Origin: Steroidobacteraceae bacterium
Lineage (GTDB): Bacteria; Pseudomonadota; Gammaproteobacteria; Steroidobacterales; Steroidobacteraceae
Assembly: GCA_016844605.1 (NCBI GenBank)
Contig: JAENJD010000012.1
Location: 1 to 34,848 of the forward strand
Length of the DNA: 34,848 bases
Direction: 5' to 3'
Shown: positions 9,302 through 19,022 of the stretch, piece by piece
How the letters are laid out: every line of letters starts with the position of its first letter
Position numbering within the stretch: the first letter of the stretch is position 1
The notes under the pieces: generated by a model
Seen by the model: only the letters and a program-made list of their open reading frames with translations
Told to the model about the DNA's origin: nothing
The model's database searches: none
Program-made: the position numbers and the translations under genes

Positions 9302-11326
9302 TCAATCCTTGAGTTGGAACCGGACGCGTGCAGCGACGCGCTGATCGACGACGATGCCATCGACCACGCGCGGTTCGTAGCGCCAGCGCACCACGGATTC
9401 GAGCGCCGCGCGATCGAAGACACCCATCGGTTCGGACCCGCGGACGGTCGCGTCGCGCGTGCTGCCGTCGCGGGCGACAGTGAATTCGATGTCCACCCAG
9501 CCGGTGGTGCCCCGCTCGAGCGCCCTTGACGGGTATTCGGGCGCCACGAAATGGGTGCGGTGCATTTCATTCTCCGGCAGCACGGCCGGTGCCACGGGCT
9601 TCGGTGGTGAAACGGCTACGCGCGCCCTTGCGATCTCGGTGGCGGCAGCGGCGACTTCGGTGGCCGGCGCGCCGGCGTCATTGGCCGCTTTCAGAAGCGC
9701 TTCGGCGCCGCTTGAATTGCCGGTCGCCGCCAGGCGGCGTGCTTCCGCGAGCGCTTTGCCCGCCAGCAGCGCGCTGGTCTCCGCCAGTCCCTCGTATGCG
9801 GGATCCGAGGCTCGCAGCAAGTCGAGGTAATGACGGGCGGAATCGGCAGCCGGCTCGATCAGGCGACCCTGGGCGATGCGCTGGTTCGCGAGCGTGAAGA
9901 GCCGCGCGCGGTCCTCGCGCACATTTCCAAGCCGCGCGACTTCGAGTTCGGAACGGAGTTCGGCCACTTCCGGGCGATCAACGTCGAGCTCGACGGCCTG
10001 ATGCACCCATTCACTGGCTTCGTCGAGGCGGCCCTCGCTGATCGCCTTGCGCGCATTGGTCTGCAGCAACGCGGCAAGCGCGGCGACGCCCCGTTGCACG
10101 CCGGGATCCGCCGGATCAATGCGCCGCGCCGAGAGGAGGTAGGCATGCGCGCTGTCAGTGCCGCCGACCAGTTGATTGCTGCGGATGCGCTCATTGGCGA
10201 GCAGCACCAGTCCCTGCACGCGGCTCGCGTCGCTGCGCGCAGACACCGGCGCAGGTGCGGGCGTGGGTGTCTGCGCGGATTTCGGAGCGTCTGTCGGGGC
10301 GGTAGCGATACCTGCGGGACGCAGCGGCTTGCCGGGAGTCGAAGAGCGCAGGAGTTCGCGCTCGAGCTGCGACGTGAAGAAATCGAGGCGCGGATGATCG
10401 GGCCGCGCTGCGCGTGCCGCATCCACGGCGCTCGCCAGGGCCGCAAGATCCTGGTCCATCAGGGCCTTCTCGGCCTGCGCCAGCAGTTCGTCCGCGACCC
10501 GGTCGATGCCGCGTTGCGCCACGCGATTGTCCGGGTCGCGCGCGAGCACTGCCCGGTAGAGTTCGAGCGCATTCTGTCCGGGCGGCTCGACGAGCTCGCC
10601 TCGCGAGAGTGCGAGGCCGGCGGAATCCAGCAGCTTCTGGACCGCGGATTCCCGGCTTGCGTCGGCGGACGTGGGTTGCCCGTCATTGGCCGGCACCATG
10701 TCGCCGGGCTTTGCCCAGGGCTTCCAGGTGGCGAGCAGCAGGATGATCAGGGCGAGTGGAATCAAGAGCAGGCTTCGGCGTAACCAGCTGCGCGTCCCCG
10801 CGCTGTCGAGCCTGATCGAAGGCATCGTAAGCGCCTTCAGCTTGGCGGAGGTTGCGCCGGTCCGCTGCACGGCGGCCGGCGTGTCGGCGCCCCTCTGCTG
10901 GCGGCGGAGCGTCGCCTCCACGAAGGTGCGGATCCGATCCGCCGAGGCCGGCTTGTGCAGGAAACGGAAAATGACGCCCTTGGAGACCAGCTCCGCGAGT
11001 TCGGCCTCGTCGTCGCGGCGGCCCGCCACGATGATCGCGAGGTCCGGGAACTGCTCATGAACCCTGGTGACGAGGTCGCGCGTATCCTGATCGGCGAGCG
11101 ACGAGTCGGCGAGCAGCACGGCATTGCCGGCCGCGACGATCAGGTCGGCCGCGTGGGCCGCATCGTCGGCGCGCCAGACGCGATGATTGTCGGCAAGTGA
11201 ATCGCGAAGCAGGTCGATGAGCACGGGATCCGCGGAAAGCACGACGACATTCGCGCCTGTGGATGGCAACGACGATGTCGCTCGCTCCCCATTCGGCTTT
11301 TCGACGTCGGTATAGTCGATGTACAC
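9302..11326 (-). CDS. Receiver-like domain / membrane / helical-repeat / TonB C-terminal chimera
   Basis: From the GTG at 11326 this gives 674 residues. Residues about 26-140 resemble a response-regulator receiver domain: beta1 ANVVVLSADP, putative phosphoacceptor Asp74 in VLLADSS and conserved Lys125 in FLHKP. The usual Thr/Ser after beta4 is Ala and the acidic pair is reduced, so it may be a partly degenerate receiver. A membrane segment follows (about 184-201, LLLIPLALIILLLATW). Next is a long alanine-rich helical region with TPR-like repeats, and a TonB C-terminal domain at the end (FVAPEYPSRALERGTTGWVDIEFTV to the C-terminus). The topology implied is a cytoplasmic sensor domain and periplasmic TonB. 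The ORF track extends upstream to 11524, but that part is low-complexity and unlike a domain. The start is uncertain. Confidence 0.85.
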   Translation of the reverse strand: MYIDYTDVEKPNGERATSSLPSTGANVVVLSADPVLIDLLRDSLADNHRVWRADDAAHAADLIVAAGNAVLLADSSLADQDTRDLVTRVHEQFPDLAIIVAGRRDDEAELAELVSKGVIFRFLHKPASADRIRTFVEATLRRQQRGADTPAAVQRTGATSAKLKALTMPSIRLDSAGTRSWLRRSLLLIPLALIILLLATWKPWAKPGDMVPANDGQPTSADASRESAVQKLLDSAGLALSRGELVEPPGQNALELYRAVLARDPDNRVAQRGIDRVADELLAQAEKALMDQDLAALASAVDAARAARPDHPRLDFFTSQLERELLRSSTPGKPLRPAGIATAPTDAPKSAQTPTPAPAPVSARSDASRVQGLVLLANERIRSNQLVGGTDSAHAYLLSARRIDPADPGVQRGVAALAALLQTNARKAISEGRLDEASEWVHQAVELDVDRPEVAELRSELEVARLGNVREDRARLFTLANQRIAQGRLIEPAADSARHYLDLLRASDPAYEGLAETSALLAGKALAEARRLAATGNSSGAEALLKAANDAGAPATEVAAAATEIARARVAVSPPKPVAPAVLPENEMHRTHFVAPEYPSRALERGTTGWVDIEFTVARDGSTRDATVRGSEPMGVFDRAALESVVRWRYEPRVVDGIVVDQRVAARVRFQLKD

Positions 11327-11657
11327 GGTACCCCGGACGTAACAAACCCGCGCAAAAACACCGCGACACGGGCCCGGAGGCCGGCGGCGTACTGGCTGCG
11401 ACAATCTTTGACAAAATCCGTCGTGGCGAACGAGACACAGGTCAAGTTTCCGCCCCTGGGCGCGTGACGCAGTTCGAAAAAACCCATCGCTTCCGGGACT
11501 TGCGGCAAAGGCCGGCCAGGGCACCCCCGAGGGGTTCCCAGGCGTTGCTTCAGTACCACAGCGGTTTCGTATTCTTCCGTTTTCACGGGATTATGTGAAT
11601 CTCGACAGCGGCTTGTGTGCCCCGTAAGGTGGGTCGGCTCGCGGGGGTGGGCGTCGC
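11327..11657. other. 331-bp intergenic region between divergent genes
   Basis: This gap separates the divergent TonB-chimera gene and the 157-residue unknown gene and must hold both promoters. I found no convincing -35/-10 pair, riboswitch consensus or small ORF with a ribosome-binding site. It contains an 18-bp inverted repeat (listed separately), a short C/G-rich hairpin (CACCCCCGAGGGG) and an A-tract GAAAAAACCC. A minus-strand ORF (11140-11586) enters it but is a shadow of the chimera gene. Confidence 0.6.
11582..11599. promoter_or_regulatory. Inverted repeat, possible operator upstream of the 157-residue gene
   Basis: The sequence TTCAC-N8-GTGAA is an exact inverted repeat of 5-bp arms, 58 bp upstream of the ATG at 11658. 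The spacing resembles a dimeric repressor or CRP-like site, but the arms are short and could arise by chance. No regulator is encoded next to it. Confidence 0.25.
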
Positions 11658-12131
11658 ATGCCGGTAGATCCGAGCATCAAGCATCAGATTGCGTTCGTAT
11701 CAAGTTTGCCGGCCGAGCATTACCACCAGCTCGAGGCGCTCCTGTTCTTCAATGAACGTCAGGACCGTGTCCGGCATGGCATCGTCACGGCCATCGACCG
11801 CTATGGGCCGCCGGAGATCGTCGTCGACGGAAATTCGTTGCGTGTACGCGTCGCCGGCCCGTCCGAGGCCCAATGCCTGTTCGCCATCGAGCGAGATGGC
11901 AAGGTTTCGCGCCCCGTGGGCGTGATCCTGTACGTGCGCGACAGCTTCGAGCGCATCACGGTGCTGCACCTGGTTGTCGCTGGCGCTTATGCCGCCGGCG
12001 GCCCGCGCGCCAAGTACAACCTGCTGCTGCGCCTGGTGCAGGCGGTCAAGCGGGTCGCACGCTGCACCTCCGGCATCCGCCATGTCGAGTTGCTCTACTC
12101 GCAGAACAGGCCGCGCGCCGCCTTCGCCTAG
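11658..12131 (+). CDS. Unknown conserved-looking protein, 157 residues
   Basis: I do not recognise the family. The protein has no signal peptide or membrane segment and looks like a soluble alpha/beta domain. The N-terminal half is SLPAEHYHQLEALLFFNERQ and the middle includes VGVILYVRDSFERITVLHLVV. The C-terminal half contains a helix LLLRLVQAVKRVARCTSGIRHVEL. The order of a strand with an arginine, ILHLVV and a long helix is reminiscent of acetyltransferase-like (GNAT) folds, but the acetyl-CoA loop is not recognisable, so no enzymatic function is claimed. The coding bias matches neighbours and the start lies shortly after a plausible upstream region. It precedes the SYLF gene by 64 nt, with a separate promoter candidate between them. 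Confidence 0.6.
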   Translation: MPVDPSIKHQIAFVSSLPAEHYHQLEALLFFNERQDRVRHGIVTAIDRYGPPEIVVDGNSLRVRVAGPSEAQCLFAIERDGKVSRPVGVILYVRDSFERITVLHLVVAGAYAAGGPRAKYNLLLRLVQAVKRVARCTSGIRHVELLYSQNRPRAAFA

Positions 12132-16749: not shown

Positions 16750-17394
16750 CTACTGGCGGGGCAGCAGGAAGCGCCGGCCGTGGTAACTGAGCACGACACC
16801 TTCGCGGTTGATCTCCTCGACCGTCGGGCCTTCGGCCAGCACCCCGCCGCGCTGGTAGCGCCGGCCATTGATGAACACGACGCGCTTCGCCGGATCATCC
16901 GAATAGATATGCAGGTCGACCGCAAGCTCCGGCAGGCCGGCGCTCACCTGCGCCGGCAGGTCGCCGATGGGTGGCGGCATGTCGTCGCCGGGCCCCGGGG
17001 AATAGGTGACCGATGCGTCTGGCAACAATGTCGGATCCGGCGCGGGTGGCGGCAACGTCGCTTCCGGCATCACCTCTGGTTCGGTCACCCGTTCATCGAT
17101 GACCGGTGAATCCACGACCGGCGCCACTTCGGCTGTCGCTGGCGCCGGCACCGGCGCCGCCACAACGGGAGCCGTGGTCGAAGTCACGCCGACCGCCGGC
17201 AGCGCACCGCTCGTGTCACGCAGCAGGAAGAAAAGCAGCACGCCGACATTGACGACCAGCAGCAAGCCGATCGCAAACAAGGCCCGGGGAAGGCGGCGGT
17301 CGTCACGCGCAACGGGCAACTCTGCGATGCTGGGGCCGCTCTGGCGCTGGCGCTCGAGTTCGGACTTGCGCAATGCGTCGAGGATGAAACTCAT
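16750..17394 (-). CDS. gspB: GspB, type II secretion accessory protein
   Basis: The 214-residue protein starts MSFILDALRKSELERQRQSG, the hallmark N-terminus of GspB/ExeB. One transmembrane segment follows (about 38-58, LFAIGLLLVVNVGVLLFFLL), then a Pro/Ala/Thr-rich periplasmic linker and a small C-terminal domain ending GRRYQRGGVLAEG and YHGRRFLLP. GspA/ExeA and GspB/ExeB form an inner-membrane complex that helps the secretin insert through peptidoglycan. The start overlaps the exeA stop by 4 bp, giving coupled translation. No other gsp genes are in this window, so the pair is unlinked from the core apparatus here. The 22-nt gap to the FakAB-like gene start hints at co-transcription. Confidence 0.93.
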   Translation of the reverse strand: MSFILDALRKSELERQRQSGPSIAELPVARDDRRLPRALFAIGLLLVVNVGVLLFFLLRDTSGALPAVGVTSTTAPVVAAPVPAPATAEVAPVVDSPVIDERVTEPEVMPEATLPPPAPDPTLLPDASVTYSPGPGDDMPPPIGDLPAQVSAGLPELAVDLHIYSDDPAKRVVFINGRRYQRGGVLAEGPTVEEINREGVVLSYHGRRFLLPRQ

Positions 17395-19022
17395 GCGCCG
17401 GCCCGCGTTCCGGTGTCAGCGAGTCTCGGAGTCCCGGGCGCGCCGAGCGCTGCGTCGAGCACGAGCTGGGTCTGCACGCCCGCGATGCCGTCCACGGAGA
17501 GACGCCGGCTGCGCTGGAAGTCCTCGACCAGGCGCTCGAGTTCGGCGTCGAACACGTCGTGCGAAGGATCGGAGACCGGCAGCCCGCCGAGTTGTTCGAG
17601 GCCATGGCGCAGCCATCGCACGTCCTCGCCGCGCATGCCGGCGCGCAATGGCCGCAGTTCGCTCGCCTGCGGGCGCCACAGGACCAGGAATTCGCCGAAC
17701 CAGTAATCCGCGAGCTCCGCGATCGGCACCTCGACCTCGCTTGCGCCGATCAGGAGCCGCGCCTGTCCCCGCTCGAGCCCCGAAAGGACTACCTGACGTG
17801 AGGAGTTCACGTCGTCGACCAGCGACAGGATGGCGGGGCGATTGATCAGCTTGAGTTGCGCGAGCGACCCGCGTTGCCAGACGCAGGTCAGGCCCTGATT
17901 CGCGGCCTGGACGCAGCCGAGGCCGTTGCCGGGCTGGTATTCGCCACCCCACATCCTGAAGAGCGAGCCAAATGCGGAATCCATCGTCGTGCCGGCGGCA
18001 TCGAGCGCGAGCAGCGCGCCGAGTTCCGGGCGTGGAGCCGGTGCAGGTGGAGGTGGCGCGGCTGCGGGTGCGATTTGGGCAGCAGCTGATTGCGGGGCGG
18101 CCGGCGTGGAGTCTTTGGCAGGCATCGCGCGCCAGATGGCGACGGCGAGAAGCGCGGCGCCTGCCGCTGCACCTGTAATCGCCGCCCAGCGCAGCCAGGG
18201 CGCCAGCACCGGACGACCATAGACTTCGCTCGCTGCGCGCCGCACGAGACCACCGGTCACGCGATGCTCTTCGCGCGTATAGGCACCGAGCAGGGCGCGA
18301 TCGGCGATGACATTGATGATGCGCGGCACGCCGCGTGACAACCTATGGAGTTCGCCGAGCGCAGCTGACGAGAACACGTCGCGGGTCGCGCCGGCTACTC
18401 GCAACCGATGGCGGATGTAGGCGATGGTCTGGGTGCGCCTGAGTGCTTCCAGGTGATAGCGGCCTGTCACGCGCTGCGCGAGCTGGCGCAACTCCGGTTT
18501 CGCGAGCACGGCGCGCAGTTCCGGCTGGCCGATCAGGAGGATCTGCAGCAGCTTCTGCGTCGCGGTCTCGAGATTGGTGAGCAGCCGCACCTGCTCAAGC
18601 ACGTCGGCGGAGAGGTTCTGCGCCTCATCCACCATCAGCACGACGCGGCGGCTGCGGCCATGCGCGTCGAGCAGGAAATGCGTCAGCAGGTCCACCAGCG
18701 ACTTGACGCTGCCGGCGGCTGCGGACGGTACCTGCACATGCAATTCGTCGCAGATGCACTGCAGGAATTCCGCGGGTGTGACGCGTGGATTGAGGATCAG
18801 CGCGACATCGCAGTGCGGCGGGAGTTGCTGCAGCAGGCTGCGCAGCACGGTGGTCTTGCCCGTGCCCACCTCGCCGGTCAGCTGGATGAATCCGCCGGCC
18901 TCGGCGATGCCATAGGCAAGATGCGCGAGCGCCTCCGCGTGCCGCTCACTGAGATAGAGGTAGCGGGGGTCGGGCGTGATCGCGAATGGCTTTTCGGTTA
19001 GACCAAAAAAGCTTGTGTACAT
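17391..19022 (-). CDS. gspA: ExeA/GspA AAA+ ATPase with peptidoglycan-binding tail
   Basis: The 543-residue protein starts MYTSFFGLTEKPFAITPDP, typical of ExeA. It has an AAA+ ATPase domain (Walker A GEVGTGKTT 50-58; Walker B VVLMVDEAQ 127-135). A membrane segment lies near 277-297 and a Pro/Ala-rich linker near 305-335. A C39-peptidase-like domain follows, with no Cys at its expected nucleophile position (TMDSAFGSLFRMWGG), and then a C-terminal peptidoglycan-binding domain (MRGEDVRWLRHGLEQLGG ... VDGIAGVQTQLVLDAAL). By family it works with GspB to remodel or bind peptidoglycan for secretin assembly. It lacks an obvious ribosome site before the ATG at 19020-19022. It overlaps gspB by 4 bp. 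Confidence 0.93.
   Translation of the reverse strand: MYTSFFGLTEKPFAITPDPRYLYLSERHAEALAHLAYGIAEAGGFIQLTGEVGTGKTTVLRSLLQQLPPHCDVALILNPRVTPAEFLQCICDELHVQVPSAAAGSVKSLVDLLTHFLLDAHGRSRRVVLMVDEAQNLSADVLEQVRLLTNLETATQKLLQILLIGQPELRAVLAKPELRQLAQRVTGRYHLEALRRTQTIAYIRHRLRVAGATRDVFSSAALGELHRLSRGVPRIINVIADRALLGAYTREEHRVTGGLVRRAASEVYGRPVLAPWLRWAAITGAAAGAALLAVAIWRAMPAKDSTPAAPQSAAAQIAPAAAPPPPAPAPRPELGALLALDAAGTTMDSAFGSLFRMWGGEYQPGNGLGCVQAANQGLTCVWQRGSLAQLKLINRPAILSLVDDVNSSRQVVLSGLERGQARLLIGASEVEVPIAELADYWFGEFLVLWRPQASELRPLRAGMRGEDVRWLRHGLEQLGGLPVSDPSHDVFDAELERLVEDFQRSRRLSVDGIAGVQTQLVLDAALGAPGTPRLADTGTRAGA

Follow-up and report, generated by a model that had tools for sequence, protein, structure and literature searches.

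The gliding machinery of Myxococcus xanthus includes two proteins, GltG (PglI) and GltJ (AgmX), that likewise combine a single transmembrane (TM) segment, a helical periplasmic part and a TonB C-terminal domain (TonB_C) (PMC3169522, PMC5349195). Both are linked to the AglRQS motor and to Glt proteins, with GltG binding AglR, and no linkage to CheA, CheY or CheX is described there. GltG also carries a cytosolic signalling domain (FHA). Other proteins, such as FrzS, PleD (in its second domain) and CmrT, contain pseudo-receivers, which keep the receiver fold without its catalytic residues; those of FrzS and PleD act by protein-protein contacts and are precedents for docking (PMC12632262). Two further systems are relevant here: the TonB energy transducer of E. 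coli and P. aeruginosa, and the chemosensory modules in which an Hpt and HATPase kinase (CheA), a competent CheY and the phosphatase CheX are encoded in one operon.

Here we analysed a stretch of 34,848 nucleotides (the window) from a Steroidobacteraceae bacterium, in which one coding sequence on the minus strand (9302..11326; 674 aa, GTG start) joins a receiver-like domain to a TonB_C across the membrane. The domain order matches that of GltG, with a pseudo-receiver in place of FHA, and no Glt or Agl genes were found among the fusion-gene neighbours that we scanned. In contrast to FrzS, PleD and CmrT, the output part is a trans-envelope TonB_C protein and not a coiled coil, a cyclase or a DNA-binding domain. 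The original prediction assumed that TonB normally senses nothing in the cytoplasm, to which GltG, with its cytosolic FHA, TM segment and TonB_C, is a contrary precedent (PMC3169522). Our searches of the open-access literature turned up no earlier account of a protein in which a receiver is fused to TonB_C, and the protein family is so far without a name.

Architecture and conservation of the fusion protein

The N-terminal domain (residues 25-140; 10907..11254, minus strand) matched Pfam Response_reg at residues 33-136 with an E-value of 6.7e-5 and 23.5 bits, which is under the gathering score of 30.2 bits. By using an AlphaFold (AF2) model built from 22 relatives, we recovered the complete (beta-alpha)5 order of a receiver at residues 26-148 with a pLDDT of about 95, and Foldseek matched this part to the PDB receivers 3jte, 2jk1 and 3hv2 (target TM-score about 0.8, E about 1e-5). 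The predicted receiver-like domain was thus borne out by structure, with a profile match below threshold.

We then looked at the catalytic positions, among which the original prediction had noted a conserved Asp74 (codon 11105-11107, minus strand) and Lys125 (codon 10952-10954, minus strand) and a missing Thr/Ser. These three points stood, but the loss is not confined to Thr/Ser: the acidic pair is also gone, the five positions (DD, D, T/S, K) of a phosphorylatable receiver being occupied in the window protein by Ser, Ala, Asp74, Ala101 or Gly102 (depending on the alignment) and Lys125. Among 64 family receivers, the first acidic position (DD1) was acidic in none and Thr/Ser was found in one, with Asp kept in 58 and Lys in 50. 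Bourret et al. (2025; PMC12632262) define a pseudo-receiver as a receiver homologue in which one or more of the five residues are missing. Judged by sequence, the fusion receiver is a pseudo-receiver under this definition throughout the family, as had been guessed, since the acidic pair and Thr are missing in essentially all members. The receiver is under purifying selection as measured by codon substitution, and no other domain of the chain is as constrained in genus comparisons (dN/dS of 0.10 and 0.19 in two comparisons, versus 0.15 and 0.26 for TonB_C). Such strong constraint is unlike the behaviour of a dead remnant.

The remainder of the chain also agreed with the predicted layout. One hydrophobic helix near residues 183-201 (10724..10780, minus strand), seen by hydrophobicity and in the family alignment, forms the single TM segment and contains no His. 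It is preceded by the basic motif SWLRRS, so that under the positive-inside rule the N terminus is probably cytoplasmic. Three helical units follow on the minus strand, at residues 215-332 (10331..10684), 363-469 (9920..10240) and 470-586 (9569..9919), which are internal repeats of one another with pairwise E-values from 1e-10 (units 2 and 3) to 1e-4. Unit 2 scored 17.7 bits against TPR_19, below the cut-off of 25, and Foldseek returned only generic TPR matches for the periplasmic part (E of at least 3e-3); with the model, which shows a helix at the membrane segment, two helix blocks and then the TonB domain, this makes the region TPR-like, as proposed. At the C terminus, residues 595-672 (9311..9544, minus strand) matched PF03544 with 62.2 bits (E 6.6e-17) against a cut-off of 24.6 and TIGR01352 with an E-value of 7.2e-14. 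By structure, the closest TonB C-terminal domain was 6i97_D, from the FoxA:TonB complex (TM-score 0.89, 32% identity), followed by 2gsk and 1u07. Because the two ends of the model match solved receivers and solved TonB C-terminal domains, both halves are genuine and the receiver-TonB_C fusion is real. As a side observation, a 439-aa open frame elsewhere in the same genome holds three tandem TonB_C matches (G000:C93:4652-5425; L003, L005 and L006).

A start codon downstream of the receiver would have removed the receiver from the protein. Conservation and dN/dS cover both the receiver and the start region, and contradict this. Orthologues are present in five of the six same-genus genomes, the whole chain evolves with a dN/dS of 0.2-0.3 in genus comparisons of codon substitution, and a V/I-I-D-Y-[TSA]-[DN]-V peptide marks the assigned start in relatives within the genus. 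It is even kept in G004, the genome that has lost the gene body and retains only the start peptide (as VNIDYTDI) and a piece of TonB_C, which argues against a true start further downstream. This remnant (L179; G004:C7, 7457-7731) is a natural loss within the genus, so at least one lineage can do without the fusion gene.

The receiver match below the Pfam cut-off, the eroded gene in G004 and one in-frame stop in the gene of G001 would fit a functionless, decaying fusion or an assembly artefact. Against this, a single open frame with both domains was found in 28 of 59 related genomes and at 50 further loci of a named genome collection, and the whole-chain dN/dS is as low as given above. We therefore consider decay or artefact exceedingly improbable, and for the family as a whole it is refuted by conservation. 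Most of these loci belong to Steroidobacterales, the named hosts including Steroidobacter agaridevorans, Povalibacter uvarum and Peristeroidobacter agariperforans; Lysobacteraceae and Acidobacteriaceae are the labels of one locus each, possibly through mis-binning. As our search patterns favoured relatives with an RFLHKP motif, the true spread may be wider.

Operons of relatives and surroundings of the window gene

A survey of gene neighbourhoods showed that the fusion recurs across genomes, repeatedly beside kinases, which supports a role in signalling. First, in CheA-type operons a membrane kinase with Hpt and HATPase_c domains (CheA-like) is followed by CheY, CheX and the fusion, although the fusion precedes the kinase in some paralogues. 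Such an operon resembles known CheA-CheY-CheX modules and differs from them in that its next gene encodes an envelope fusion protein. CheX was called in 12 loci and lies directly upstream of the fusion in nine, with gaps of -13 to 71 bp. Second, in 21 loci the fusion is directly followed by a receiver-like/Ser-Thr kinase (REC-STK), and in 13 of them the two genes overlap by 4 bp, an arrangement typical of translational coupling. Third, in four loci the family is split, a histidine kinase preceding a receiver-pseudo-receiver protein and a TM-TPR-TonB_C protein. The split-form regulator combines a receiver and a pseudo-receiver like PleD, and its second domain is the one matched by the pseudo-receiver profile. 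Catalytic residues are intact in the operon-encoded CheY proteins and, in the split locus L072, in the receiver that comes first.

Of the 57 genomes searched, 18 carry a single CheX each; in 14 of those it is encoded on the same contig as a family match and no more than 5 kb from it (positions compared by hand; for G019, G012 and G011 only a C-terminal piece is matched). The probability of this by chance is about 1e-17 in a rough binomial estimate, which treats related loci as independent events; the operon counts likewise come from related loci. Moreover, the kinase type tracks the family tree, with five changes compared to a mean of 28 after shuffling. Without a signalling link, it is hard to see why one protein family should be accompanied by three different kinase modules. 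A further fusion paralogue (L040, L044) lies near three genes for glycogen/maltodextrin-type enzymes, named by eye, in several genera.

The same operons would fit a signal running in the opposite direction, in which the TPR-like region and TonB_C sense the state of the outer membrane, the peptidoglycan or a receptor, and the pseudo-receiver titrates CheY or tunes the kinase. Pseudo-receivers have indeed been proposed to modulate partner pairs of kinase and regulator (PMC12632262). However, the CheA-like kinase of one operon (L039) appears from its sequence to own a membrane-flanked N-terminal sensor region, and no gene for a transcriptional output is linked, so we regard this direction as rather unlikely.

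The REC-STK operons also bear on another explanation. They are often preceded by gspA and gspB; in many of them a gspB relative is the gene immediately before the fusion, and in eight a gap of 126-325 bp separates the two. In the window, gspB (T2SSB; 16750..17394, minus strand) is on the same strand as the fusion gene and about 5 kb upstream, next to gspA (AAA, PG_binding_1 and C39-like; 17391..19022, minus strand). GspB anchors the secretin to the inner membrane and the cell wall (PMC9239104), and the genome has four secretin-domain genes, hence the fusion might be an assembly factor for a secretin or a type II secretion system that works with GspA and GspB under kinase control. We find this improbable, as gspAB does not lie near relatives of the CheA and split types, and gaps of 126-325 bp are no proof of one transcript.

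The clade of the family tree into which the window copy falls has no linked kinase, and consistent with this we found neither a kinase nor CheX among the neighbour genes scanned beside this copy, so that a phosphorelay input to it would be hypothetical. No CheX was found in the seven genomes of the genus searched either, several of which are incomplete. Two candidate partners in the window genome were rejected: a REC-STK on contig C88, considered as a relocated operon partner, turned out to be orthologous to another STK, which is unlinked, and for a CheA-like kinase acting in trans the only match is the HATPase region of a ChpA-like protein. Contig C106 (G000:C106, L181) carries a Pil-Chp-like cluster with two CheY-like genes, a CheW-like gene, an MCP-like gene and a 1150-aa ChpA-like kinase (names given by eye), and its CheY proteins are a possible source of a partner for the window copy.

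The fusion gene has a conserved divergent neighbour, c1 (11658..12131, plus strand; 157 aa, no Pfam match). It also adjoins the CheA>CheY>CheX>fusion operon of Steroidobacter and Povalibacter, again divergently, and in total at least ten loci show this divergent arrangement with either the fusion gene or its CheA operon. In the window, the stretch that separates c1 from the fusion gene holds a non-coding element (11404..11449, minus strand; single copy in the genome) around GACCTGTGTCTCGTTCGCCACGACGGATTTTGTCAAAGA that is conserved across the genus and relatives and kept in G004 despite the loss of the fusion gene. The element probably serves to regulate c1, or c1 and the fusion gene alike.

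Likeness to TonB and energy transduction

With the TonB energy transducer, the fusion shares the TonB_C fold, its sequence signature and a single inner-membrane anchor. It differs by the absence of a TM His, of exbBD linkage and of a Pro-rich linker, and by the addition of a cytoplasmic domain and a TPR-like rod. It had been predicted that the fusion adjusts energy transduction to outer-membrane receptors; the following observations went against this claim. First, the Ser16/His20-type motif for coupling to ExbBD is missing from the family: no TM His was found in any member with a clear TM segment (the long members L055 and L056 were scored at a wrong segment in this count and have no His in the alignment), whereas both TonBs of the exbBD operon of the same genome carry it. 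These two are tandem paralogues beside exbB and exbD (G000:C82:36086-37869; L001 and L004), and their C-terminal domains have paired cysteines. Second, residues 196-240 showed, by eye, no obvious Pro-flanked alternating hydrophobic strand of the kind that forms the D-box motif (PMC10907165). For the weight placed on Ser16/His20 and the D-box we rely on that paper and on the work of Larsen and Postle (2001) to which it refers. Third, no exbB is present on the contig of the window, the five ExbB-family genes of the genome all being elsewhere, and no exbBD linkage was seen for any family member. Since the family has no TM His and a helical-repeat instead of a Pro-rich spacer, its membership among the energy transducers fails on the features tested.

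The fusion could nonetheless be a true TonB, doing ExbBD-driven work on TonB-dependent transporters (TBDTs) that is switched by the cytoplasmic domain. Its TonB_C is canonical, its best matches are receptor-bound TonB structures, and the genome encodes 15 TBDT plugs and five ExbB/TolQ/MotA-family proteins. The canonical C-terminal domain might bind TonB boxes, and a model so near to TBDT-bound TonB suggests that a transport role could exist. Set against a His that is absent from the family and present in both ExbBD-operon TonBs, no evident D-box-like strand after the TM segment and no linked exbBD, such a regulated transducer seems doubtful to us.

A proposed signal-controlled envelope tether

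The best explanation for our data, to which we give an even chance of being right, is that the fusion acts as a signal-controlled envelope tether that makes no use of the ExbBD motor; topology, docking, signal direction and the outer-membrane partner are all inferred here. GltG and GltJ already show a layout of this kind. The protein would be a one-pass inner-membrane link between the cell interior and the envelope, whose cytoplasmic pseudo-receiver would serve as a docking module for a partner and not as a phosphorylation site. In relatives this partner would most likely be the adjacent phosphorylatable CheY, the CheA-like kinase or the receiver-like/Ser-Thr kinase. The TPR-like rod would span the periplasm and TonB_C would grip a partner in the outer membrane or the cell wall, so that binding of the inside partner would change whether the tether contacts the outer membrane, or at which place it does so. 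In the window genome, where the linked kinase is missing, the partner would have to act in trans. Counting against the tether are the absence of a kinase or CheX linked to the window gene, the orthology of the genome's REC-STK to an unlinked STK and the loss of the gene in G004.

How cells inform an outer membrane without energy of its own about their internal state is a standing question. The recurrent placement of fusion relatives next to signalling kinases suggests that the protein is a means by which internal signals reach the envelope. Tentatively, and as a possibility that we hold below even, a complete CheA-CheY-CheX (or Ser/Thr kinase) pathway would have a TonB-like trans-envelope protein as its direct output and would control the outer membrane post-translationally, with the pseudo-receiver of the window genus wired to a partner encoded elsewhere. 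On this reading, the direct output would differ both from flagellar motors and from gene regulators. The fusion also offers a natural case for how pseudo-receivers are used, a mechanism called a mystery in a 2025 review (PMC12632262), and implies that not all proteins annotated as "energy transducer TonB" may be energy transducers. A phosphorylation pathway whose operon recurs across genomes and closes with a TonB_C protein would represent a direct and testable route to the outer membrane.
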